Assembly: GCA_016191845.1 (NCBI GenBank)
Contig: JACPVF010000003.1
Location: 186,001-250,000 of the forward strand
DNA length: 64,000 nt
Source: Chloroflexota bacterium
Lineage (GTDB): Bacteria > Chloroflexota > Anaerolineae > Anaerolineales > Villigracilaceae
Reading direction: 5' to 3'
In this document: piece after piece, positions 3,545-16,532 of the stretch
How positions within the stretch are numbered: position 1 is the first letter of the stretch
Layout: every line of letters begins with the position of its first letter
Position numbers and translations under genes: made by a program
The notes under the pieces: model-generated
What the model was told of the DNA's origin: nothing
Database searches by the model: none
What the model saw: the letters and a program-made list of their open reading frames with translations, nothing else

Positions 3545-4960
3545 ATGGCCGCGCTCAAGCAATTCTCGCAACAAGACCCCAAGTGGAAGTCTCAGCTGCT
3601 TGGTACCGACAAACAAAGCACCATCGGCAGTTACGGTTGTCTGCTCACCAGTCTGAGCATGGTATGCAGCACTTATGGGATCGAGCTCACGCCCGAGCAG
3701 TTGAACGAAAAGATGCGCGCCGCGGGGGCCTTTCAGGGGGCATTCCTCATGCCCGTCTATATCAGCAATGCCGTGCCCGGCATGCGTCAGACCAACTATA
3801 TCGAATGTCAGAACCAGCCCGCCCCGTTGGCTGAGATCGACTCCTACCTCGCGACGGGCAAGCCCGTTATCGTCGAGGTGGATTACTCCCCCAACACAGG
3901 GCTGCAAAACCACTGGATCGTGCTGACCGCCAAGAAGGGCGATGATTACGTCCTCCAGGACCCGTGGACCTATCCGCCCGACCCGAAAGAGGTCACGCTG
4001 ATGGGCTCACGCTATGCCTTCAACGGCAAGCCCGCCCAGATCATCCAGGCCGCCCTGTGGCTGGACGGCCCTGCAGGCCATGTGACCCCTCCCCCGCCGC
4101 CCAATCTCGACAAGGGCGTGGCTGCCAGTTTCCCCGTCTATGCCAACGCCGACGACCTGGCCATCCGCTCGCAGCCGCTGGCCAACGACACCACCCTCAT
4201 CAAGCGCGTACCGATGAACACCGAGTTCAAGCCGCTCACCACCGACGCCGACGCCAAGGCCAAGATCGGGCAGATGAATCAGTGGCTGCCGGTCAAGGCC
4301 GCCGACGGGACTCAGGGCTATGTAGCCGCCTGGTACGTCTCGCTGCAGAAACAGACTCCCCCTGCCGCGCCCGCCAAGGCACCCGTTCCGACCGATGCCG
4401 TGGTCATCAAGACCACCACCGACGCAGTGGCCTTGCGCTCCAAGCCCGACACCACCGACGCCAGCCTGCTCAAGCGCCTGCCCATCGGCGCGGAGTTGAA
4501 GGTGCTCGACACGCAGGATGACGTGCGTCGCAAGGTCGGCGTGATGTACGAGTGGTTGCGCGCCCAGGACGTGACAGGCACGCAGGGCATGATCGCCGCC
4601 TGGTACGTGACGGTTGTCTCGGGGCTGACCGCCCTCGGCGCGAAGGATCAGCGCCAGACCCAGCCGCCCTCCTTCGCCGTCGGTGATGAGCCGCTGCCCG
4701 TCCTACTCCGCACCGAGGAAGAGGATCTGGCTCTGCGCGCCGAACCGTACGTGGCCGAGTCCACGCTCATCAAACGTCTGCCGCTTGGTGCAGAGTTGAT
4801 CGCCATCGAACCGCCCGACATGGCCGCGCCCAAGATCGGCCGCGTGGGTGACTGGATCCACGTCCGCGACGTGGCAGGCGATGAAGGTTATGTGGCTGCC
4901 TGGGCTGTGGTCGAACGCCCTGAAGATCCCGCTCCCAGTTCCGCGCCTGCGGATGCATAA
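3545..4960 (+). CDS. C39-like papain-fold protein with three SH3-type repeats
   Basis: First gene of the putative conflict operon, 471 residues. Residues 1-180 look like a C39_2-type cysteine peptidase: Cys32 in GSYGCLLTSL, His123 in QNHWIVLT and Asp139 in VLQDPW form a plausible triad. Three SH3-like repeats follow at about 198-265, 288-356 and 388-455. Each has the pattern ALRS/AxP...LIKRxPxGAEL...WL/I...G..G.xAAWYV. Such modules usually bind cell-wall peptides, yet no signal peptide or membrane span is visible. It may act inside the cell, leave by an unusual route, or bind a partner protein. GGAGG precedes the ATG. The next gene starts 32 bases downstream. The peptidase call rests on motifs only. 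Confidence 0.72.
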   Translation: MAALKQFSQQDPKWKSQLLGTDKQSTIGSYGCLLTSLSMVCSTYGIELTPEQLNEKMRAAGAFQGAFLMPVYISNAVPGMRQTNYIECQNQPAPLAEIDSYLATGKPVIVEVDYSPNTGLQNHWIVLTAKKGDDYVLQDPWTYPPDPKEVTLMGSRYAFNGKPAQIIQAALWLDGPAGHVTPPPPPNLDKGVAASFPVYANADDLAIRSQPLANDTTLIKRVPMNTEFKPLTTDADAKAKIGQMNQWLPVKAADGTQGYVAAWYVSLQKQTPPAAPAKAPVPTDAVVIKTTTDAVALRSKPDTTDASLLKRLPIGAELKVLDTQDDVRRKVGVMYEWLRAQDVTGTQGMIAAWYVTVVSGLTALGAKDQRQTQPPSFAVGDEPLPVLLRTEEEDLALRAEPYVAESTLIKRLPLGAELIAIEPPDMAAPKIGRVGDWIHVRDVAGDEGYVAAWAVVERPEDPAPSSAPADA

Positions 4961-4992: not shown

Positions 4993-7047
4993 TTGACAGA
5001 TTTCGCTGACCTCGAACTTGGCCTGCACCAACGCGAGGCGGGCGCATACACGATCGAGATGCGTTTCAGCCAGCCCGGCAGCGATGCGGACATCCGCATT
5101 GGGCAGGGACGGCCCGTGATGGTGCAATTCGATTTTCAAGACCTGCTCAAGAAATCTGGGAACCCGGCCGCCTATGGCGCCGCCCTCACCCAGAGTCTGT
5201 TCGCCGACAAGGACATCTTGTCGGCGTTTTCGCAGGCGCGCACCAGTGCCCAGACGACCAAATCTCCCCTGCGTGTGCGGCTGACCATCGGCCCGAGCGC
5301 ACTCGAGTTGAACAGCCTGTTTTGGGAGACCCTGCGCGATCCCGCCGACGACAAGGCGACGCTCTTCACCGGCGAACAGGTCTTCTTCTCGCGCTACCTC
5401 AGCAGCCTGGACTGGCGCCCTGTCAAGCTGCGCTCGAAGGGCAGCCTTAAGGCCGTCATCGCCCTGGCGAATCCCAGCGGCCTGGATCAGTACTCGCTGG
5501 CCGCCGTGGATGTGCCCGGGGAATTGGCTCGCGCCCAGGCCGCGTTGAAGAACATCCCCTCCACGGCATTGCCTTCCCAGCCCGGAGAACGCTGCACGCT
5601 GGAGAGCATCATCGCACGCCTGCGCGAAGGTGTGGACATCCTCTATCTCGTGGCGCACGGCTCCTTCGTTAAAGAGGAACCCTGGCTATGGCTGGAGGAC
5701 GAGTCAGGTGCAGTGGCGCGTGTCTCGGGTTATGACCTGGCCACCCGCATCCGCGAATTGGACAACCAGCCCCGCCTGGTGGTGCTGGCCTCCTGCCAGA
5801 GCGCGGGACAAGGCGCAGGGGCGGCGTTGCAGGCCCTCGGTCCGAAACTGGCCGAAGGCGGCGTGCCCGCCGTGGTCGCCATGCAGGGCAGCGTCAGCAT
5901 GGACACGATCGCCAAGTTCATGCCCGTCTTCTTCGAAGAACTGGAGAAGGACGGACAGGTGGATCGCGCCATGTCGGTGGCGCGCGGCACGGTACGCGAC
6001 ACGTCCGATTTCTGGATGCCGGTGCTGTTCATGCGCCTGCGCAGCGGACGCATCTGGTACACGCCTGGCTTCGGCGAGGAAGGCAGCGACTTCAAGAAGT
6101 GGCCATCGCTCTTGACCAGTTTGCAGGCAGGAAAGTGCACACCCATCATCGGCGCAGGGTTGTACGAGCCGCTGCTTGGCTCGTGGCGGGACCTGGCGTT
6201 GGGCCTGGCCGAAAAATATCGCTATCCCCTGGCACATTTCTATCGTGACGCCCTTCCCCAGGTGACGCAATACCTATCCATCGACCAGTCGGTCAGCACA
6301 TTGCTGCTCGAGCTGGAAAACGTCATCCGCGAGCATGTCCAGGCCCGCTTCAGTGCTGACCTGTCCGATGCGCTCAAGGGCGATAAGGCCCCCATCCTCG
6401 ACCTGCTCTCGCTGGGCGGCAAGACCCTGCGCGCCAAGGATCCGACCGAGCATCACAAGGTGCTGGCAGGCTTGAAGCTTCCCATCTACATCACCACCAA
6501 TTACGACAACATGATGTCCGATGCGCTCAAAGAGGCGGGCGCCGACCCGCAGATGGTCATCTGCCCGTGGAGCGACCGTTTCGATGCAACATCCATCTAC
6601 GACAAGGAACCCGAATATCGTCCCACCCCTGAACGTCCGCTGGTCTATCATCTCTTCGGCCATTTCAGCATTCCTGAATCGCTGGTGATGACCGAGGACG
6701 ATTACTTCGAGTTTCTGATCGGCGTGACCAGCAACAAGGATCTGATTCCGCCCGTGGTGCGCCGCGCCCTGACGGACGCCGCCTTGATGTTCCTCGGCTT
6801 CCAACTGGACGACTGGGCCTTCCGCATCTTCTTCCGCTCGATCATGAACCTGCAGGGTGGCGGACGTCGCAGCCGCTACGCCCACATCGCCGTGCAGGTG
6901 GACCCCGACGAGATCCACAACCTGGATCCGCGCCGCGCACGAGAGTATCTGGAGGATTACTTTGAGGATGACTCGATCAGCATTTTCTGGGGCCAGTCGG
7001 GGGACTTCATTCGTGAGCTTGTTTCGCAAATGAACGTGACTGGATAA
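4993..7047 (+). CDS. CHAT protease domain fused to a SIR2-like domain
   Basis: The 684-residue protein has two effector-type modules. Residues about 130-360 form a CHAT caspase-fold domain with the dyad His222 (YLVAHGSF) and Cys268 (VLASCQSAG). Residues about 370-680 resemble SIR2_2 domains: IIGAG at 385-389, TTNYD at 501-505, HLFGH at 553-557 and a late FLGFQLDDW. In known defence systems SIR2-like domains degrade NAD+, and CHAT proteases act in controlled death (for example Craspase and gasdermin-activating proteases). Start is TTG at 4993, preceded by AGGAG at six bases. The STAND gene follows after nine bases, suggesting a partnership. No transmembrane segment is seen, so it should be cytosolic. 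The fold assignments are motif-based. Confidence 0.85.
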   Translation: MTDFADLELGLHQREAGAYTIEMRFSQPGSDADIRIGQGRPVMVQFDFQDLLKKSGNPAAYGAALTQSLFADKDILSAFSQARTSAQTTKSPLRVRLTIGPSALELNSLFWETLRDPADDKATLFTGEQVFFSRYLSSLDWRPVKLRSKGSLKAVIALANPSGLDQYSLAAVDVPGELARAQAALKNIPSTALPSQPGERCTLESIIARLREGVDILYLVAHGSFVKEEPWLWLEDESGAVARVSGYDLATRIRELDNQPRLVVLASCQSAGQGAGAALQALGPKLAEGGVPAVVAMQGSVSMDTIAKFMPVFFEELEKDGQVDRAMSVARGTVRDTSDFWMPVLFMRLRSGRIWYTPGFGEEGSDFKKWPSLLTSLQAGKCTPIIGAGLYEPLLGSWRDLALGLAEKYRYPLAHFYRDALPQVTQYLSIDQSVSTLLLELENVIREHVQARFSADLSDALKGDKAPILDLLSLGGKTLRAKDPTEHHKVLAGLKLPIYITTNYDNMMSDALKEAGADPQMVICPWSDRFDATSIYDKEPEYRPTPERPLVYHLFGHFSIPESLVMTEDDYFEFLIGVTSNKDLIPPVVRRALTDAALMFLGFQLDDWAFRIFFRSIMNLQGGGRRSRYAHIAVQVDPDEIHNLDPRRAREYLEDYFEDDSISIFWGQSGDFIRELVSQMNVTG

Positions 7048-7056
7048 GGAGAGACC

Positions 7057-10000
7057 ATGTCATCCACTGCCACCAATCTTCGATCCAGTTCCAACCCCTA
7101 TGTGGGTCCGCGTTCCTTCCAGACCGGCGAAAGTCTGTACGGCCGCTCACGCGAAAGCGCCGAATTGCTCGACCTGGTCATCGCGGAACGCATCGTGTTG
7201 CTGCACTCGCCCTCGGGTGCAGGCAAGAGCTCACTGATCAATGCCAGCCTCGTCCCGCAGATGCGTGAACAGGGCTTCTGGGCGCTGCCTCCCGTGCGCG
7301 TCAACATGGAGCCGCCCGAAGGATTCGCGGGTCAGCCCGGCTTCAACCGCTACGTCTTCAGTGTGATGCGTTCGCTCGAAAGCGAACTGCCTGCCAAGTC
7401 GCAATATGCACCCAGCGACCTGCTCGGCAAGACGCTCGCCCAGTACATGAAGGAATATCCCGAGCGGGCCATGCCGCACGTACAGGATTACGATCCTGCC
7501 AACTCGCTCTTCATCGTGTTCGACCAGTTCGAGGAGTTGGTGCGTGTCAGCGCCGTGGACCGCGATGCCAAGCTCGAATTCGCCAATCAACTCGGCGAGA
7601 TGCTGCGCGACCGCAACCTGTGGGTGCTGTTCGCCATCCGCGAAGATTATCTGGCCGCCATCGAGCCGTACAATCGCCCGATCCCCAACCGCTTCAACGT
7701 CACTTACCGACTCGACTTCCTCGACGCCCGCTCCGCCATCGAGGCCATCCAGAATCCCGCCAAAGATAAGGGCGTGGATTTCGAAAACGAGGCCGCCTCG
7801 AAACTGGTGGACGACCTGCGCCGTATCCGCGTTCAGCAGGCGGACGGATCAGCCCTCGAGCAACTCGGCCTGTACGTCGAGCCGGTCCAGTTGCAGGTGG
7901 TCTGTCGCCGCCTGTGGGGCACGCTGGGTGGACGCAAAACCGTCACCGTGGAGGATGTGGCCAAGGCGGGTAACATCGACGACGCGCTGGGCGACTACTA
8001 CGCCTTCCACGCCAGCAGCGTGGCTGCCGATGCAGGCGTGAGCGAACGCCAGGTCCGCGAGTGGTTCGACCGCAAGCTCATCACCGTCAACGGCATCCGC
8101 GGCCAGGTGCTGATGGAACCCGAGGCCAGCGGCGGCTTGTCGAACAAAGCCATCAAGATGCTGCAAGAGGCCTACCTCGTCCGCGCGGACAAACGCGGCA
8201 ACGCCGTCTGGTTCGAGCTGGCGCACGACCGCCTCACGCGTCCCATCCGCCGCAACAATGCCGACTGGTTCATCGAAAATCTCAACGTCTTCCAACGCCA
8301 GGCCGACCTGTGGAACAACCAGGGGCGGCCTGAGTCGCTGCTTCTGCGCGGACATGCCTACCTCGAAGCTGAGGAGTGGGCCAAGGGCCATCCCGACGAG
8401 GTCCTGCCCGCCGAGCAGGAATTCCTGACCGCATGCAAGCAGGAATACCAGAATCAATTGCGCGAACACCGCACCAACCTGCTCATCCGCTGGGCGGCTG
8501 TGCTGATGACCGTGCTGGCCCTGGCCGCGCTGTATTTCTTCTTCCAGGCCCAGGCAGAGACCGCCCGCGCCACGGCACAGGAAGCCATCGCCAAGAAAGA
8601 GGCGCAGCGCGCCAACGACCAGGAAAAGATCGCCAAGGAAAAGGAAGCGCTGGCCTATCAAAAGGAACAGATCGCCAACATCAACTTGCAGATCGCCCAT
8701 CTGCGCGAGTTGGCTGCCCAATCGGTCAGCAATCTGGCAGTGGACCCGGAGTTGAGCATCCGCCTGGCCTTGCAGGCTACTCAGGGCGTGGACCTGACCC
8801 AGCCTGAAATGCAAAGTGCCATCGGCCAGGTGGAGGACGCCCTGCGTCAGGCCCTGCCCTCGATGCGCGTGGAACATGTTTTGCACGACCCCGCCATCTC
8901 CGCCACTGACTCGATCACCCACCTGGGCACGGTCTGGAGTCCGGCCTTCAGCCCGAACGGACAGCGCCTTGCCACGGCAGGCAACGATGGTACGCTCAAA
9001 CTATGGGACACGGTCACAGGCAAACTGGTCAAATCTCTGCAAGTGCTGACCCCCGCCGAGGATGGTTACGGCGTGACCTATGTGGCCTACAGTCCCGACG
9101 GCAAATTGCTGGCTGTCACCACCGGCGATGGACAGGTCATTTTGTATGATGCCAATAACCTGAGCAAGGTCAACTCTCTACAGGTTGGAAATGATGTATT
9201 GTGGGGGCTGGCCTTCAGCCCCGATGGAACCCGTCTGGTCACTGGCGGGACAGGCGGCGTGGCTGTCATCTGGAACATCGCGGATAACACCTCCCAACCT
9301 CTGACGGGCGGCCACACCGACGACATCCAGGCGGTGGCCTTCAACCGCGACGGAACCCGCATCGCCACGGCGGGTGCCGACTCGCTGGCCATCGTCTGGG
9401 ACGCGAACTCGCGCCGCGCGATCTTCCGTCTGGCAGGGCACACCGGCTATGTCAACAGCGTGGCATTCAGTCCCGATGGCAAACGCCTGGCCGCGTCCGG
9501 TGGCGAAGACCGCTCCATCATCCTCTGGGACATCAGCGTGCCCGCCACGCCCCAGGTGCTGACCATCACCGGTCACCGCGACTGGATCTACGCCATCGCC
9601 TTCACCAAGGACGGATCGAACATCGTCTCCGTCAGCGCCGACCGCACCGTCCGCTTCTGGGATACCACCTACGGACGTCCCAGCCTGATGCTGGTGGGTC
9701 ACAAAGACCAGGTCTACGGTCTGGCCCTCAGCCCGGACGGCAAACGCGTCGCCACCTCCAGCAAGGACAAGACCGTCCGCATTTGGAACATCTCGCCCGA
9801 AGGCAGCCGCGAACTGCTCACCTTCGACAACCGCGACAGCGTCCATAGCATTGCCCTCAGCCCGGACGGGAAACAATTGGCCACGGCCGGCAAGGATGAC
9901 CTGGCCCACCTGTGGAGCACCGTCTCCGGGCGGCTGACCGTCACCCTGAACGGTCACACCGACGATATCGAAGATGTGATCTTCAGCCCGGATGGCAGCA

Positions 10001-11613
10001 AGGTGGCCACCGCCAGCCGCGACAAGACCGTCCGCATTTGGGATGCGGCCAGCGGGAATCAACTGCTGACCTTCGCCGAGCACACAGCCTCCGTGGAAAC
10101 CCTGGCCTACAGCCCGGACGGCAGCCGCATCGCCAGCGGCGACGGAAACGGGACGGTCAAGATCTGGGATGCCACGACCGGCAGCCCGATCTTCGACCTG
10201 CCCTCCACCTGGGGACCGGCCTACAGTCTGGCTTACAGCCCAGACGGCTCAGTCCTGGCGGTCGGCTATTACGAACAAGTTATCGTCCTATGGGACACAA
10301 AGACCGGCAATTCCCTCACCACGTTGAGCGGCCACACCGACATCGTGGAAACCGTGGCTTTCGGTCCCGACGGGAAGTGGCTGGCTTCGGGCGGCGACGA
10401 TGGCAGCATCATCCTCTGGGATATGAACCCGACCCGTTGGGGTCAATTCCAGGCTCCCATCCGCGGGCGGGGCGACACCATCTTCGACCTGGCCTTCAGC
10501 GCAGATGGAAAATTCCTTTATACCGGCGGCGCGGATGGCATCGGCACCTTGTGGGACCTGGAAGACCGCACGATCAAACTCCAGACCTACGGTCACACCG
10601 ACCGTATTTACAGCGTGAAGATGAGTCCCGATGGGAAATACCTCTACAGCGGCGGGCGCGACGGCACGGTGCGCTCCTACGTCCTCGCGCTGGATGAGCT
10701 GATCAAACTCGCAGGGCAACGCACCACACGTGAGTTCTCCGAAGACGAATGTCGCCAGTACCTGAACGCAGCCTGCCCATCCGATTCGGGCCTGCCTGTC
10801 GAGGCCCCGCCCGGCCCGGCGGCCGTACAACTCAAGCAGCCCAACGAAGTCCCCGCCTCGCCCGAGAGTTTCCTGCTGGACAATAACTCCTCGGTCTTTG
10901 CAAGCGAGTTGCGCGCCAACGGCGGCGATGAATACGACCTCAACATCTTCGAGCGCCCGTTCAACGGCGGCGAGATGAACATCTACTACCCGGATATCGA
11001 TATTATCAACGCCGGCCTCTCGCAAGACAAGGAGTGGGTCTACGTCACCATCACGATGGCGGGACCGCGTGGCGATGGGCTGACCGGCAACTACGGCATT
11101 GAACTCGACCTGGATGTGGACGGCCGCGGCGACTATTTCATCACCACTCTGGCGCCCGGCAAGGAATGGTCCACCAACGGCGTGCGCATCTGGAACGACA
11201 AGAACGGCGATGTGGGCAACGGCATCCCGTACGTATCCGACCCGCCGCAGCTCGGCGACGGCTACGAGGTACTGGTCTTCGACCAGGGCAACGGTGACGC
11301 ACCCGACCTGGCCTGGTCGCGCATCTCGCCCAACGACCCGAACAGCATCCAGATCGCCTTCCAGCGCAGCGTCATCACCAGCGACCCGGTCTTCTCATGG
11401 ACGGCCTGGGCCAGTCGCGATGCCTTCAAGCCGGCCTGGTTCGATTACAACGACCACTTCACATTCCTGGAAGCTGGCTCACCCCTGCGCGAACTACTCA
11501 AGTACTATCCGCTCAAGGCATTGGCGGGTGTGGACAATACCTGCCATGCGCCTTTCGGCTTTAACGTTTTCGGACAGGCAGGCTTCTGCCAACCTGACGA
11601 GACCCTCCCATAA
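7057..11613 (+). CDS. nSTAND ATPase - transmembrane - WD40 sensor protein
   Basis: A 1518-residue signalling protein. An N-terminal nSTAND1-type NTPase has Walker A SPSGAGKSS (51-59) and Walker B-like LFIVFDQFEELV (151-162), followed by winged-helix and helical parts. One membrane span lies at about 477-496, preceded by Arg residues that suggest N-inside. A coiled coil runs to about 570. Fourteen WD40 repeats (about 620-1208, pattern FSPDG..LATG..D.T..LWD) could form two seven-bladed propellers. A C-terminal domain follows with DLDVDGRG and Cys pairs (ECRQYLNAAC; C...C near the end). STAND proteins switch on by ligand-driven oligomerisation. The topology puts WD40 outside the membrane if N-in is right. 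It is the likely switch of the operon. AAGGAGA precedes the ATG. Confidence 0.9.
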   Translation: MSSTATNLRSSSNPYVGPRSFQTGESLYGRSRESAELLDLVIAERIVLLHSPSGAGKSSLINASLVPQMREQGFWALPPVRVNMEPPEGFAGQPGFNRYVFSVMRSLESELPAKSQYAPSDLLGKTLAQYMKEYPERAMPHVQDYDPANSLFIVFDQFEELVRVSAVDRDAKLEFANQLGEMLRDRNLWVLFAIREDYLAAIEPYNRPIPNRFNVTYRLDFLDARSAIEAIQNPAKDKGVDFENEAASKLVDDLRRIRVQQADGSALEQLGLYVEPVQLQVVCRRLWGTLGGRKTVTVEDVAKAGNIDDALGDYYAFHASSVAADAGVSERQVREWFDRKLITVNGIRGQVLMEPEASGGLSNKAIKMLQEAYLVRADKRGNAVWFELAHDRLTRPIRRNNADWFIENLNVFQRQADLWNNQGRPESLLLRGHAYLEAEEWAKGHPDEVLPAEQEFLTACKQEYQNQLREHRTNLLIRWAAVLMTVLALAALYFFFQAQAETARATAQEAIAKKEAQRANDQEKIAKEKEALAYQKEQIANINLQIAHLRELAAQSVSNLAVDPELSIRLALQATQGVDLTQPEMQSAIGQVEDALRQALPSMRVEHVLHDPAISATDSITHLGTVWSPAFSPNGQRLATAGNDGTLKLWDTVTGKLVKSLQVLTPAEDGYGVTYVAYSPDGKLLAVTTGDGQVILYDANNLSKVNSLQVGNDVLWGLAFSPDGTRLVTGGTGGVAVIWNIADNTSQPLTGGHTDDIQAVAFNRDGTRIATAGADSLAIVWDANSRRAIFRLAGHTGYVNSVAFSPDGKRLAASGGEDRSIILWDISVPATPQVLTITGHRDWIYAIAFTKDGSNIVSVSADRTVRFWDTTYGRPSLMLVGHKDQVYGLALSPDGKRVATSSKDKTVRIWNISPEGSRELLTFDNRDSVHSIALSPDGKQLATAGKDDLAHLWSTVSGRLTVTLNGHTDDIEDVIFSPDGSKVATASRDKTVRIWDAASGNQLLTFAEHTASVETLAYSPDGSRIASGDGNGTVKIWDATTGSPIFDLPSTWGPAYSLAYSPDGSVLAVGYYEQVIVLWDTKTGNSLTTLSGHTDIVETVAFGPDGKWLASGGDDGSIILWDMNPTRWGQFQAPIRGRGDTIFDLAFSADGKFLYTGGADGIGTLWDLEDRTIKLQTYGHTDRIYSVKMSPDGKYLYSGGRDGTVRSYVLALDELIKLAGQRTTREFSEDECRQYLNAACPSDSGLPVEAPPGPAAVQLKQPNEVPASPESFLLDNNSSVFASELRANGGDEYDLNIFERPFNGGEMNIYYPDIDIINAGLSQDKEWVYVTITMAGPRGDGLTGNYGIELDLDVDGRGDYFITTLAPGKEWSTNGVRIWNDKNGDVGNGIPYVSDPPQLGDGYEVLVFDQGNGDAPDLAWSRISPNDPNSIQIAFQRSVITSDPVFSWTAWASRDAFKPAWFDYNDHFTFLEAGSPLRELLKYYPLKALAGVDNTCHAPFGFNVFGQAGFCQPDETLP

Positions 11614-11631: not shown

Positions 11632-13071
11632 ATGACCGACCAACTGGTATTCAACGGCATCGACGCGACTACAGGCAATTACCTCATCCCGCCGGTGGAA
11701 CCTGATACGATGGCGGCCGCCATCACGGGCGAACCGCGTAATGCGGAAGAAGCCGAGGCACTCAAACGCTGGTGGGCGCAATATGCCGACACGAACCAGA
11801 ACAAGAAGGCCGATTACGCCGCCAAGGAAGGTACTGATTACAAAGATCTGGCCTCCGCAGGCTGGGGCGTCATCTTCCCCTATAACGTGGACCCCACCAT
11901 CGTCAAAGCGCTCAAACCCCTGCTCGACTGGCGCAAGGCACTGGCGGGCAAACTCTACAAGGAATATAGCGGCCCCGAAGGTTATCGCTTCAAACCGGGC
12001 GAGATGTACGAGAGCAAGGATGAATGGCTCACCCGCCACGGTGCGGGGCCTGGTCCCGTGGACCCCGAGATTGTGCCTTACTATCTGCTGATTGTCGGCG
12101 ATCCCGAACAGGTCCCCTACCGCTTCCAGACCCAGTTGGACGTGCAGCATGCCGTCGGCCGCATCTATTTCGACAAGGCTGAGGAATACTGGAACTACGC
12201 CAACAGCGTGGTCAACGCCGAGAAGAAGAAACTCTCCCTCGGCAAATCCGCCGCCTTCTTCGGCGTCTCCAACAAGGATGACGTGGCCACCAACATGAGC
12301 GCCGAGCAGCTGGTCAAGCCGCTGGCTGATACCTTTGCCAAGGGGCAAAAGGGCTGGAAGTTCTCCACCTTCCTCGGCGACAAGGCCAAAAAGGCCGGCC
12401 TCGCCAACGTGTTGGGCGGAAACGATACCCCCGCCCTGCTCTTCACCGCCAGCCATGGCATGGGCTTCCCCAACGGTGACCCGCTTCAACTCACGAATCA
12501 AGGCGCATTGCTCTGTCAGGATTGGCCCGGGCCGAAGGAATGGCGCAAGGCCATCGGCAAGGACTTCTACTTTGCCGCCGACGATTTGGCCGACAACGCC
12601 ACCCTCTTCGGGCTGGTGGCCTTTTTCTTTGCCTGCTACGGTGCGGGCACACCCAAAATGGACGACTTCTCCAAGCAGGCCTTCAAGCAGCGCGGCGAGA
12701 TCGCTCCGAAGAATTTCCTCGCCAAGCTGCCGCAGCGCATGCTCTCACATCCCAAGGGCGGCGCGCTGGCTGTCATCGGCCACGTGGAACGCGCCTGGGG
12801 CTACTCATTCTCGTGGGGCAAGGCAGGCGCGCAGCGCGCCGTCTTCGAGAGCGCCCTCAAGCGTCTGTTCGACGGCTACCCCATCGGTTACGCCTTCGAA
12901 TACTTCAACGGCCGCTACGCCGAACTCTCCTCGGACCTGACCTCCACCCTCGAAGAGATGGAGTTCGGCAAGAAGGTCGCGCCCGCCGACCTGGCGGGCC
13001 TGTGGACCGCCAACAACGACGCCCGCAACTACGTGGTTCTGGGCGATCCCTTCGTCAAATTGATGGCCTGA
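11632..13071 (+). CDS. Caspase-fold (clan CD, C25/CHAT-like) protease
   Basis: The 479-residue product has the two signatures of clan CD cysteine proteases in the right order and spacing: a strand then His275 in LLFTASHGMGF, and 60 residues later a strand then Cys335 in FFFACYGAG. A downstream GGALAVIGHVERAWGYSF resembles the strand after the catalytic Cys in gingipain (C25) and CHAT folds. No signal peptide or membrane span is seen. It is a second caspase-like protease in the same operon, 18 bases after the STAND gene and with AAAGGTGA before the ATG, so it may act in a cascade with the CHAT-SIR2 protein. I do not recognise a close characterised homologue; assignment to C25 rather than CHAT is uncertain. 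Confidence 0.75.
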   Translation: MTDQLVFNGIDATTGNYLIPPVEPDTMAAAITGEPRNAEEAEALKRWWAQYADTNQNKKADYAAKEGTDYKDLASAGWGVIFPYNVDPTIVKALKPLLDWRKALAGKLYKEYSGPEGYRFKPGEMYESKDEWLTRHGAGPGPVDPEIVPYYLLIVGDPEQVPYRFQTQLDVQHAVGRIYFDKAEEYWNYANSVVNAEKKKLSLGKSAAFFGVSNKDDVATNMSAEQLVKPLADTFAKGQKGWKFSTFLGDKAKKAGLANVLGGNDTPALLFTASHGMGFPNGDPLQLTNQGALLCQDWPGPKEWRKAIGKDFYFAADDLADNATLFGLVAFFFACYGAGTPKMDDFSKQAFKQRGEIAPKNFLAKLPQRMLSHPKGGALAVIGHVERAWGYSFSWGKAGAQRAVFESALKRLFDGYPIGYAFEYFNGRYAELSSDLTSTLEEMEFGKKVAPADLAGLWTANNDARNYVVLGDPFVKLMA

Positions 13072-13084
13072 GAAAGGACATACC

Positions 13085-13588
13085 ATGACCCGTCCCACTG
13101 CAGACATCCCCGAAATGCCCGACTTTTCGAAAGAGGAAGCGCCCGTCGCCTCTGGACTCGAGCCTGTCTCCGCCCCCCAGGCGGAATCGGCGCCCATGGC
13201 GAATTACGGCCTCTTCAACGCGGAGAGTCAGGGCAAACTGGCCGACGCAACGCAGAAATTCGTGCAGCGTCTCGGCGACTACCTCAGCCAGGCCCTCGAT
13301 GACGCCACCAGCCTGGAAGTCCGCACCTACGTCAGCGGGAACATCGGCGCCGTAACCTATGACAAGGGTCAATTCGGCGGCGACGCCCGCCTGCGCGCCA
13401 TGACGCGCGTCAACATCGACGGCGACACACTGGTGTGCGTGCCTGAGACCGACGGCGAAGTGGACACCGCCGTGTGGTCCATCCACATGGACATGGTCAA
13501 GCAGGCGCAGGAGAGTCGCGCCGAGTTGATGAAGACCATCGTCTCGGCGGCAGGCAGCCTGGCCAGCATCTTCACGCCCAAGGGATAA
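13085..13588 (+). CDS. Small operon protein A, carries the shared domain of this locus
   Basis: A 167-residue protein of unknown function. The first 45 residues are acidic, Pro-rich and probably disordered. The rest (about 49-163) is a domain repeated in the next two genes. It has an amphipathic helix (LADATQKFVQRLGDYL), a strand LEVRTYV, the block RVNIDGDTLVCVP, and a long helix with HMDMVKQAQESRAELMKTIV. The last helix ends in a hydrophobic stretch (SAAGSLASIF). GAAAGGA precedes the ATG. It abuts the following gene exactly (TAAATG). The clustering suggests an adaptor or effector-associated domain for the STAND/CHAT proteins; that is inference only. Confidence 0.75.
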   Translation: MTRPTADIPEMPDFSKEEAPVASGLEPVSAPQAESAPMANYGLFNAESQGKLADATQKFVQRLGDYLSQALDDATSLEVRTYVSGNIGAVTYDKGQFGGDARLRAMTRVNIDGDTLVCVPETDGEVDTAVWSIHMDMVKQAQESRAELMKTIVSAAGSLASIFTPKG

Positions 13589-14392
13589 ATGCCCGCAACC
13601 TTCGAACTCACTCTCCCCGATGACGAACCTGTCGGCCTGATCGGGCCGTGGCAGGCGGGCGCGCCCGCGTCCGTCTCGTTCGCGGCGGGAGAGTCGTCTG
13701 CGCCGCCCGACGCGCCCGTGTGGAAGGTCAGCCTGCCTGCCGATCCGCTCGAAGCGGACCAGGCCCTGGCCGAGGCCGAGGCGCAGATCGCGGCGGCCGA
13801 GTCGGCGCTGGATGAAGTCCCTGCCCGCCTGGATGCGATTGCCACATCCCAGCCGCGCGGCGTCTCGTTCGATGCGGCCTCTTTCGGCGTCGAAGCGGAA
13901 TCGCCCGAGGCCGACTTGCTCTCGTTGCTCGATCACGCCCGCTCCATCGAGCAGGGGCGGCCGGTATCCTACGGGGCGTTCGACTTTGCCTCCGAGGCGT
14001 GGGAGCAGGCCAGGGTCCAGTTCGAGGCTTTCCTCGGCCAGCTTCAACGCGAGGTGCTGCACTTTGCCTGGGTCGAGACCAACGTCGAGGGTCAACTCCT
14101 GGCGCGGACGACCGTCGGCTGGGGCGGCGACAGCGACACCCTCTGGCTGGAAGGCGCGGACGCGGCTCAACTGGCCATCCATCGCCGCGCGTTGCAGGTG
14201 GCGGTCAAGTCGCGCGCGCTGCGCCTGCGCATGTTCTCCACCGTGACGAGCGGCGCGGCCAAACTCTCCCTGTTGTTGACGACGCCCGCGGGCGCAGTGC
14301 TGGCCCTGCCTGCGGCGTGGAAATATGTGACCGATATTCTTGCACAGATCAAATCCTATCAAACCCTGATCCAAGGAGGAACGAATGGCTAG
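13589..14392 (+). CDS. Small operon protein B, coiled coil plus shared domain
   Basis: A 267-residue protein of unknown function that starts at the base after the stop of the previous gene. Residues 1-50 are low-complexity. About 55-90 is an Ala/Glu-rich coiled coil (ALAEAEAQIAAAESALDEV). Residues about 145-225 carry a diverged copy of the domain of its two neighbours: QLLARTTVGWGGDSDTLW matches the strand-GDS/GDT-strand block, and AIHRRALQVAVKSRALRLRMFSTV matches the long His-containing helix. A hydrophobic segment at about 222-248 (LSLLLTTPAGAVLALPAAW) could be a membrane or pore-like helix. It overlaps the next gene by eight bases. A role as membrane-targeted partner is speculative. Confidence 0.65.
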   Translation: MPATFELTLPDDEPVGLIGPWQAGAPASVSFAAGESSAPPDAPVWKVSLPADPLEADQALAEAEAQIAAAESALDEVPARLDAIATSQPRGVSFDAASFGVEAESPEADLLSLLDHARSIEQGRPVSYGAFDFASEAWEQARVQFEAFLGQLQREVLHFAWVETNVEGQLLARTTVGWGGDSDTLWLEGADAAQLAIHRRALQVAVKSRALRLRMFSTVTSGAAKLSLLLTTPAGAVLALPAAWKYVTDILAQIKSYQTLIQGGTNG

Positions 14393-14808: not shown

Positions 14809-15690
14809 ATGTCCTCTTCCCGCTCTCAACCGCTCGACAGAATCGTGCAAGCCATCCAGGCCGTCAAGGATGGAGAGTACACCCCCGCCCTGCTGGAGAC
14901 TCTGTTTACGGCGGATGATCTCGGCGAACTGGCCCGCGCCGTGGACATGATGGCGCGCGGCGTATCCTCACGTGACCGCCAACTGAAACTGCTTCAGCGC
15001 GTCATCCCTGTGGGCGTGGCGCTCTCCGCCGAAAAGGACTTCGACCGCCTGCTCGAAACGCTGGTGGTCGAGGCGCAATCCGTCACGGGCGCGGACGCGG
15101 GGACCCTGTATCTGTTGGAAGAAGACCTGCTGCGCTTCGTCATCCTGCGCAACACCTCGCTGGGCTTGCAAATGGGCGGCACCAGCGGCAGGCCAATCTC
15201 ATTCGAGCCCGTCCGTTTGTACAAAGCCGACGGTTCCGAGAACCGCGCCAACGTGGCTTCCTATGCCGCCCTCACCCGTCAGCGCGTGAACTTGGAGGAC
15301 GCCTACCAGGCAGAGGGTTTCGACTTCTCGGGCACGCGGGACTTCGACGCCCACACAGGCTACCGCTCCCGCTCCTTTCTGACCCTGCCGCTGGAGGGCG
15401 CTTCGGGCAAGGTTATCGGCGTGCTGCAGCTCATCAACGCCAGGGATGACGAGATGGACGGCATCTCCCCCTTCCGCGACGACAGCGTCCTCGACGCGCT
15501 GGTGCTGCTGGCCTCTGCCGCGCTGGACGGTTACATCCGCGAAGAGAAACTGCGCCAGGAGATCGCCAAACTGCGCATCGAGATCGACCAATCCCGCCGC
15601 GACGCCGCCGTGGCCGACATCACCGACACTCCCTACTTCAAACAATTGCAGGACAGGGCCCGCGAACTGCGCGCCAAGCGCTCCGAATAA
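14809..15690 (+). CDS. GAF domain protein
   Basis: A 293-residue cytoplasmic sensor-like protein. Residues about 80-245 form a GAF domain of the phosphodiesterase/adenylate-cyclase type: DAGTLYLLEEDLLRFVI, then FDAHTGYRSRSFLTLPL and VIGVLQLINARDD. In phosphodiesterases this segment lies near the cyclic-nucleotide pocket, but ligand binding here is not shown. A C-terminal coiled coil (about 248-293, EKLRQEIAKLRIEIDQSRRD) ends with DTPYFKQLQDRARELRAKR, a tail I associate with Chloroflexota GAF/cyclase proteins. There is no catalytic domain, so it must act through a partner. The MinD-like gene 89 bases downstream has its own promoter. Confidence 0.85.
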   Translation: MSSSRSQPLDRIVQAIQAVKDGEYTPALLETLFTADDLGELARAVDMMARGVSSRDRQLKLLQRVIPVGVALSAEKDFDRLLETLVVEAQSVTGADAGTLYLLEEDLLRFVILRNTSLGLQMGGTSGRPISFEPVRLYKADGSENRANVASYAALTRQRVNLEDAYQAEGFDFSGTRDFDAHTGYRSRSFLTLPLEGASGKVIGVLQLINARDDEMDGISPFRDDSVLDALVLLASAALDGYIREEKLRQEIAKLRIEIDQSRRDAAVADITDTPYFKQLQDRARELRAKRSE

Positions 15691-15714
15691 ACCTTGCTGA
15701 ATCGTTGACGTGGG

Positions 15715-15742
15715 TTGCCTTTCCCCTCGTCTACACTATAAT
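15715..15742 (+). promoter_or_regulatory. Promoter of the MinD-like gene
   Basis: TTGCCT (15715-15720), a 16-base spacer and TATAAT (15737-15742). A leader of about 30 bases follows, with GGGAGCAGG before the start. Confidence 0.7.
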
Positions 15743-15779
15743 TATTTTGTAACGAGAGAATTTCCACGGGAGCAGGTTG

Positions 15780-16532
15780 ATGTCGAAAATCATTTCCGTC
15801 CATTCGTTCCGCGGGGGAACGGGCAAATCCAATACGACCGCGGGGCTGGCCGCCCTGCTGGCTGCGGAAGGCGCCCGCGTCGGCGTGGTGGATACCGACA
15901 TCCAGTCCCCGGGCATCCATGTGCTGTTCAACTTTGTCGAGACGGGATCCGTCCATTCGCTCAATGATTATTTGTGGGGGAAGTGCTCCATCAAGGAAGC
16001 CGCCCACGATGTGACCTCTCACCTGCAAGGCGTCAAGGGACGCGTCTTCCTCATCCCCTCCAGCATCAAGGCGGGAGAGATCGCCCGCATCCTGCGCGAG
16101 GGCTACGATGTGAACCTGCTCAACGAAGGCTTCCGCAACGTCATCCGCGAACTGGCGCTGGACTACCTGCTGATCGATACTCACCCTGGCCTCGGCGAGG
16201 AGACTTTGCTCTCGCTGGCCATCTCGGACGTGTTGGTCATCCTCCTGCGCCCCGACCAGCAGGATTATCAGGGGACGGCCGTCACCGTGGACGTGGCCCG
16301 CAAGCTTGAGGTCCCGCGCATGATTCTGCTGGTGAACAAGGTGCCGCAGGCCTTCGATCTCGACGAGGTCCGCTCGCGCGTGGAACAGACCTACGGCGCG
16401 GAAGTAGGCGCCGTCCTGCCGCACGCCGACGAGATGATGACCCTCGCCAGTGCGGACATCTTCTCCCTGCGTTATCCCGACCACCCCGTGACCCTCGGCC
16501 TGCGCCGCGTCGTCGAGATGGTCAAAGCCTGA
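15780..16532 (+). CDS. MinD/ParA-like P-loop ATPase
   Basis: A 250-residue deviant-Walker ATPase. Its Walker A is FRGGTGKSN (residues 10-18). The Lys that usually opens the KGGxGK signature is Arg11 here, while Lys16 is kept. Switch I follows as VGVVDTDIQSPGIH, and the Walker B-like strand is YLLIDTHPGLGEETLL. A TTG at 15777 is in frame directly before the ATG at 15780; I use the ATG. Relatives position division or polar complexes, or act as regulatory ATPases. There is no ParB-like partner nearby. The small winged-helix gene 24 bases downstream is the probable partner. The C-terminal membrane-targeting helix of true MinD is not obvious. Confidence 0.85.
   Translation: MSKIISVHSFRGGTGKSNTTAGLAALLAAEGARVGVVDTDIQSPGIHVLFNFVETGSVHSLNDYLWGKCSIKEAAHDVTSHLQGVKGRVFLIPSSIKAGEIARILREGYDVNLLNEGFRNVIRELALDYLLIDTHPGLGEETLLSLAISDVLVILLRPDQQDYQGTAVTVDVARKLEVPRMILLVNKVPQAFDLDEVRSRVEQTYGAEVGAVLPHADEMMTLASADIFSLRYPDHPVTLGLRRVVEMVKA

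Follow-up and report, generated by a model that had tools for sequence, protein, structure and literature searches.

A very probable membrane-crossing nSTAND1-WD40 relative of APAF-1 and its CHAT-SIR2 neighbour in a Chloroflexota bacterium

Within a 64,000-nucleotide stretch of a Chloroflexota genome (contig JACPVF010000003.1; hereafter the window), one open reading frame encodes a protein of 1518 residues. This bacterial relative of APAF-1, a cell-death sensor of animals, very probably crosses the cell membrane. Computation gives its domain order (nSTAND1 ATPase, membrane span, WD40 propellers, C-terminal domain), a charge bias around the span, exported kin of the C-terminal domain, an association of a cysteine clasp with spans among WD40 proteins, and a CHAT-SIR2 gene as neighbour. 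With its switch and a partner protease predicted inside the cell and a 14-bladed sensor outside, the system may relay a signal from outside to a suicide-type enzyme within.

Domain architecture and gene neighbourhood

The nSTAND1 domain was recognised with 106.8 bits, against a curated Pfam cut-off of 27.1, and carries the motifs GKSS (residues 56-59) and DQFEEL, the latter Walker B-like. For the WD40 part, Pfam PF00400 recognised 13 stretches and a crude model built from three of the protein's own blades gave 14 matches, while an AlphaFold model of residues 602-1258 (two-row alignment, mean pLDDT 79.7) contains 54 strands of at least three residues, near the 56 of two seven-bladed propellers. 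The initial annotation had read 14 WD40 blades from this sequence, in agreement with these results, and its general layout (a STAND ATPase, one span, 14 blades and a C-terminal domain) is borne out by Pfam, hydropathy and the blade model. The propellers diverge faster than the other parts: between two congeners, identity is 66% over the WD40 region, 81% over the ATPase and 83% over the CHAT-SIR2 protein. Cysteines are found before the span (C283 and C460) and past it, where four occur as the pairs C1232/C1240 and C1496/C1511; the propellers have none. Cysteine pairs had indeed been noted earlier in the C-terminal part, along with the sequence DLDVDG, which we locate at residues 1351-1356, within the terminal domain of 256 residues. 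The AlphaFold model of this domain, from two sequences, is too poor to use (mean pLDDT 37.1). Searched with PADLOC models at E 0.01, the 1518-residue protein matched no family.

Table 1. Features of the receptor locus, in window coordinates
Feature	Position	Strand	Evidence
C39_2-type peptidase with SH3_3 repeats, no signal peptide by eye	3545..4960	+	Pfam, hydropathy
CHAT-SIR2 protein, 684 aa, probable cytosolic effector	4993..7047	+	CHAT E 1.7e-29, SIR2_2 E 2e-24 (Pfam)
Predicted transmembrane nSTAND1-WD40 receptor	7057..11613	+	ORF, ATG start, 1518 aa
nSTAND1 NTPase, residues 14-395	7096..8241	+	Pfam PF20703 E 2.5e-30
Single predicted membrane span, residues 475-496, Arg-rich N-side	8479..8544	+	Hydropathy, sequence
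Charged, probably helical linker, residues 497-560, coiled-coil-like by eye	8545..8736	+	Sequence; inference
14 WD40 blades, residues 626-1206, two 7-bladed propellers	8932..10674	+	Pfam, blade model, AlphaFold
Cysteine clasp ECRQYLNAAC, residues 1231-1240 (C1232/C1240)	10747..10776	+	Cysteine positions, relatives
C-terminal domain, residues 1263-1518, common to lipoproteins, C1496/C1511	10843..11610	+	Genome matches
C25-like peptidase domain protein, accessory	11632..13071	+	PF01364 E 2.4e-8
Unknown 167-aa protein	13085..13588	+	Pfam scan, neighbour comparison
Unknown 267-aa protein, downstream in some relatives	13589..14392	+	Pfam scan, neighbour comparison

A subset of the window's taxonomic family shares the accessory genes, with the C39/SH3 gene upstream and those for the C25-like, 167-aa and 267-aa proteins downstream; in four relatives the C25-like and 167-aa proteins are fused into one. 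The C-terminal ends of the 167-aa and 267-aa proteins (13085-14392) look alike by eye. Past this cassette, positions 14809-16532 encode a span-less HAMP-GAF protein and a MinD/ParA-like ATPase.

Membrane topology

The window protein has only one 19-residue segment reported at a mean Kyte-Doolittle hydropathy of 1.6 or more (2.06, best framed at 475-493 or 480-498), R469, R472 and R478 sit at its N-side or N-edge, and hydropathy detects no N-terminal signal segment. On an insertion scale, the span scores about +0.3 kcal/mol, that is, moderate, most relatives being negative; its membrane crossing therefore rests mainly on the receptor family. All 30 distinct family members, incomplete ones included, have the span. 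Counting Lys and Arg in the 15 residues flanking it on either side, 28 of them have more on the N-side than on the C-side (means of 5.4 and 2.2 across the family), two are tied and none is reversed; two members (L064 and L071) have one extra weak hydrophobic segment apiece (1.72 and 1.68, respectively). Span-bearing WD40 controls from outside the family show the same bias in 14 of 16 cases and the reverse in two (L077 and L082). Among the nSTAND1-WD40 proteins recognised here the span is the rule, being clearly absent from region L156 and unconvincing in the remote match L063_258. The earlier description of the window protein as unlike most STAND receptors, which are cytosolic, thus holds against STAND proteins in general and not inside its own family.

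The domains found before the span in relatives are of cytosolic type. Among nine typed relatives with a span, WD40 repeats and a clasp, seven have DNA-binding, kinase or TIR domains there: HTH, kinase and nSTAND1 in L076, L089 and L095, kinase and nSTAND1 in L085, TIR in L105, and HTH and nSTAND1 in the Streptomyces regions L157 and L161; the other two (L102 and L077) have only an NTPase. Such HTH, kinase and TIR domains imply that the N-side belongs in the cytosol. The four kinase-nSTAND1-span-WD40 fusions (L076, L085, L089 and L095, three of them with HTH) are possible receptor kinases or membrane-tied regulators in their own right. Haliscomenobacter pHALHY02 (Bacteroidota; L153, 732-7709) has a split form, in which a SIR2 gene and a STAND-span gene precede two WD40 genes whose products, by eye, start with signal peptides.

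The other end of the protein points outside. The C-terminal domain has 33 matches, the window's own among them, in 12 of 301 Chloroflexota genomes, 11 belonging to the window's taxonomic family and one to its order. We inspected 30 of the 32 non-window matches and all are free-standing proteins whose N-terminus combines a hydrophobic signal with a lipobox, assigned by lipobox rules and by eye (25 by rule, four by eye, and one through an overlapping locus because the end of its own was cut). One such protein is encoded in the same genome (L139). The equivalent of C1496/C1511 is present in all 30 and this pair is invariant in the 29 rows of alignment A1 (the window and 28 of the 30). Since the other carriers of the domain are exported lipoproteins, it is expected outside the cell, in line with the surface-type beta domain proposed from the window alone as far as export is concerned. 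Among the family members sampled, only the window's genus has this lipoprotein-like domain fused to the receptor. The lipoproteins themselves (L121-L149; window 10843-11610) form a family built around a domain of about 250 residues with an invariant cysteine pair that lacks a Pfam or PDB name: a PDB profile search with the domain gave no match at E up to 1, and Pfam scans gave no significant match, the weak scattered ones (best E 0.042) sparing the window's member.

A third line of evidence is the cysteine clasp after the last blade, present by rule as two cysteines in 21 of the 22 family rows scored; the exception, L065, has its cysteines (C1333/C1359) beyond the search distance. Across a table of 74 proteins, the clasp occurs in 41 of 54 WD40 proteins with a span and in 4 of 20 without (Fisher p 2.4e-5, controls taken among the matches listed). 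Once the family rows are removed, it occurs in 20 of 32 and 4 of 20, respectively (p 0.004, controls again among the matches listed), and for non-family Chloroflexota alone 13 of 24 against 2 of 17 (p 0.008, among the matches listed); for the full table, span thresholds of 1.9 and 2.0 each give 38 of 48 against 7 of 26 (p 1.7e-5). All these p-values are inflated by kinship of the proteins, and the blade model derives from only three blades. The WD40 controls came from ten relatives and the window's own genome (genes among the best matches listed), supplemented by nSTAND-type matches from 14 of the 24 plasmid records of other organisms; 6 of 44 control regions (L101, L106, L109, L115, L118 and L119) gave no protein with at least four blade matches. 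The table leaves out L075 (a duplicate), L054 (open end) and L087 (a gap of N), and eight of the 30 family members lie outside it through few blades, no WD40, a broken frame or a contig end.

The strongest favourable cases are the two proteins of L096 and that of L108, which carry WD40 repeats and the same clasp behind an N-terminal signal anchor. In the other direction, the clasp is missing from 12 non-family proteins scored as span-bearing, including the lipoprotein- or signal-type L098, L107, L117 and L153_5912, and four span-less proteins were scored as having it: L105_3248, whose start is uncertain; L111, whose cysteines fall within later unrecognised blades; L155, with an RRRRR-flanked span barely under the threshold (1.62); and L156, a Nostoc relative that retains one true tail cysteine. 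L063_258 was scored as span-bearing through what is apparently a piece of the ATPase core. The clasp is consequently neither needed for export nor proof of it, and together with the span it makes a cheap, imperfect sequence mark for sorting bacterial WD40 proteins by membrane side. Cysteine parity after the span, judged by eye, was dropped because it was too weak. Propeller cysteines number 0.20 per 100 residues in the family and 0.21 in other span-bearing proteins, versus 0.90 in span-less non-family ones. The two clasp cysteines would presumably form a disulfide, and two VKOR homologues, both above cut-off in the own genome, could in principle drive disulfide formation outside.

From these sequence features, an N-in/C-out topology, with the ATPase inside and the propellers outside, is well supported, and we place the propellers outside the cell with high confidence. 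This is the orientation that the initial annotation had read from arginines on the N-side of a single span, a reading to which the family now adds its charge bias and conserved span, the lipoprotein kin, the clasp and the N-side domains of relatives. The opposite orientation, left open at that time, has two charge ties within the family in its favour; with charge reversed in none of the 30 members, no signal segment at the start of the window protein, and relatives carrying HTH, kinase and TIR domains before the span, an outside ATPase with inside propellers appears vanishingly improbable. Many STAND systems are cytosolic and membrane-acting effectors are known, so the whole protein might also stay in the cytosol with a buried hydrophobic helix that, once activated, enters the membrane to act as a pore or effector, but the exported kin of its tail, a clasp also seen in signal-anchor proteins and the charge bias make this highly improbable. 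As for the fate of an exported ectodomain, signal peptidase might cut after the span (A498-Q499-A500, before E501) and leave it either free or attached as a sensor of its own: both the window protein and its congener have an A-x-A motif just past the span, and the Haliscomenobacter WD40 parts are separate exported proteins. Yet the stretch is Ala-rich, so that such a motif is expected by chance, and the span length probably suits an uncleaved anchor; cleavage therefore seems highly improbable.

The CHAT-SIR2 partner and a possible signalling route

The initial annotation was silent on the gene directly upstream, which encodes both a CHAT and a SIR2_2 domain in a protein whose best hydropathy is 1.13. 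H222 and C268, presumably the His-Cys pair of the CHAT protease, are invariant in all 29 aligned rows (the window and proteins longer than 500 aa; two rows are identical). The SIR2-type candidates N503 and H553 are present in the window and in 23 and 22 of the 29 rows, respectively, and the SIR2 part resembles ThsA models (E 1.6e-11).

We searched 301 Chloroflexota genomes with the first 605 residues of the STAND protein (11 matched, the own genome included) and 61 genomes, the own one and 60 relatives, with the CHAT-SIR2 protein (12 matched, likewise). All 14 non-own STAND rows and 17 of the 26 non-own CHAT-SIR2 rows gave 31 regions (L044-L074), one more row lying inside a fetched gene. Each of the 29 testable ones (L046 and L073 reach a contig edge) has a CHAT-SIR2 gene immediately before the STAND gene, in the same orientation and at most 89 nt away; the adjacency in L060 was taken from its ORF, and in L074 the SIR2 part alone was matched. 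In L070 and L072, the CHAT-SIR2 gene beside the STAND gene is split over two frames. A scan of named genomes yielded an additional record (JACRBN010000026.1, from a groundwater Chloroflexi MAG), which encodes a STAND protein identical to that of genome G301. The eight remaining CHAT-SIR2 rows correspond to seven regions. In one of them (L165, 2354-7040), CHAT and SIR2 are matched apart from each other and an nSTAND match adjoins the SIR2 part, the region being a split form related to the pair; a contig end truncates L166 and L167; and L168-L171, weaker CHAT-only matches (28-33% identity), have no nSTAND gene nearby. The pairing rule thus applies to CHAT-SIR2 genes and not to CHAT genes at large. 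Viral contigs contained no stretch matching the CHAT-SIR2 patterns.

Such constant pairing makes the likely unit a transmembrane STAND receptor that switches a CHAT/SIR2-like effector in trans. We consider it more probable than not that the protein is a single-pass receptor in which an outside ligand acts through the propellers, the span and nSTAND1 on this effector. In detail, a phage particle, a neighbouring cell or a wall component would cluster or rearrange the two seven-bladed propellers, which a disulfide clasp would close and which share the outside with the lipoprotein-derived domain; the linker and span would carry the signal inward to the nSTAND1 ATPase; the STAND module would then swap its nucleotide and oligomerise into a platform for switching on CHAT-SIR2, the product of the adjacent upstream gene; the protease of this effector, perhaps with its NAD-acting part, would halt or kill the cell. 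We infer the sensor role and the control of an effector from architecture, gene pairing and the faster divergence of the propellers, and ligand binding, passage of the signal, effector activation, cell death and the biological role are to be read in the same conditional way. For the broader proposal, that this is a bacterial transmembrane death receptor firing CHAT-SIR2 in trans and that the clasp marks, across Chloroflexota, Cyanobacteria and Actinomycetota, a large class of extracytoplasmic WD40 sensors, we see the chances as evenly balanced.

With the same N-in/C-out topology, the outside part could instead be an anchor or adhesin that holds on to the wall or a neighbour, the STAND module sensing its trigger inside. 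The C-terminal domain is, after all, common to lipoproteins, the last domain of L045 is SH3_3-like (a weak match, E 7.7e-4, under the curated cut-off) and L064 has a Pro/Thr-rich stretch and no WD40. An adhesive role of this kind is nevertheless unlikely, considering that the propellers diverge faster than the rest of the protein and that WD40 is the sensor part of APAF-1 (PMC7159879). An outside sensor, if confirmed, could allow cells to assess phages or neighbours prior to entry, and a STAND family so equipped would be the bacterial counterpart of surface death receptors.

Comparison with known systems

STAND receptors (APAF-1, NLRs and Avs) are mostly regarded as sensors of the cell interior, and APAF-1 itself acts in the cytosol, together with CARD and caspase. 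In the Chloroflexota protein, in contrast, a span parts the ATPase from the propellers and the partner gene encodes CHAT-SIR2. APAF-1 chains occur among the PDB matches of the window propellers, and the likeness extends to the apoptosome plan, in which two sensing WD40 propellers come after a STAND ATPase and the effector is a protease supplied in trans (PMC7159879). The best PDB match, compared over the propellers only, is the Nostoc WRAP protein Npun_R6612 (2YMU, E 4.6e-179), whose 14 blades form two seven-bladed propellers according to PMC6805158.

The domain name nSTAND1 appears in PMC8195603, and the conflict systems described in the portions at hand of that work and of PMC7159879 combine an nSTAND1 ATPase, such as the window protein has, with varied effectors; the EACC1 and GAP1-N2 systems include membrane and extracellular domains, and PMC7159879 describes conflict systems with outside domains. 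As described in those portions, these systems show neither a CHAT-SIR2 pair nor an outside WD40 part. One STAND-type target has NACHT and lectin domains predicted as periplasmic (PMC10907252), a survey of prokaryotic WD40 proteins does not, in the text available, sort them by membrane side (PMC5587647), and WD-repeat kinases are listed in PMC1262709.

Thoeris ThsA has a similar SIR2 part; the partner described here has CHAT and SIR2_2 and no SLOG by Pfam, nor was any TIR found among the nine genes scanned. PknB-type receptor kinases have a large cytosolic N-terminal enzyme, one span and an outside sensor, a plan like that of the window protein, although they carry a kinase and PASTA and only the window protein has a STAND. 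A CHAT-SIR2/nSTAND1-WD40 pair was not named in the titles or abstract openings found, in a search that covered neither subscription journals nor preprints.

A precedent in topology is provided by cyanobacterial membrane orthocaspases, with the order p20, (AAA_16/NACHT), span and WD40 and with a predicted inside protease/NTPase and outside WD40 part as here; for six of them, an outside WD40 with an inside caspase was already predicted from span prediction (PMC7475262). In these orthocaspases the caspase is fused and, in the text available, the topology comes from span prediction, whereas here the effector has a gene of its own and exported-domain evidence is added. The bare idea of an outside WD40 part is thus already known; new are the family-wide evidence for topology, the lipoprotein-type tail and the CHAT-SIR2 partner.
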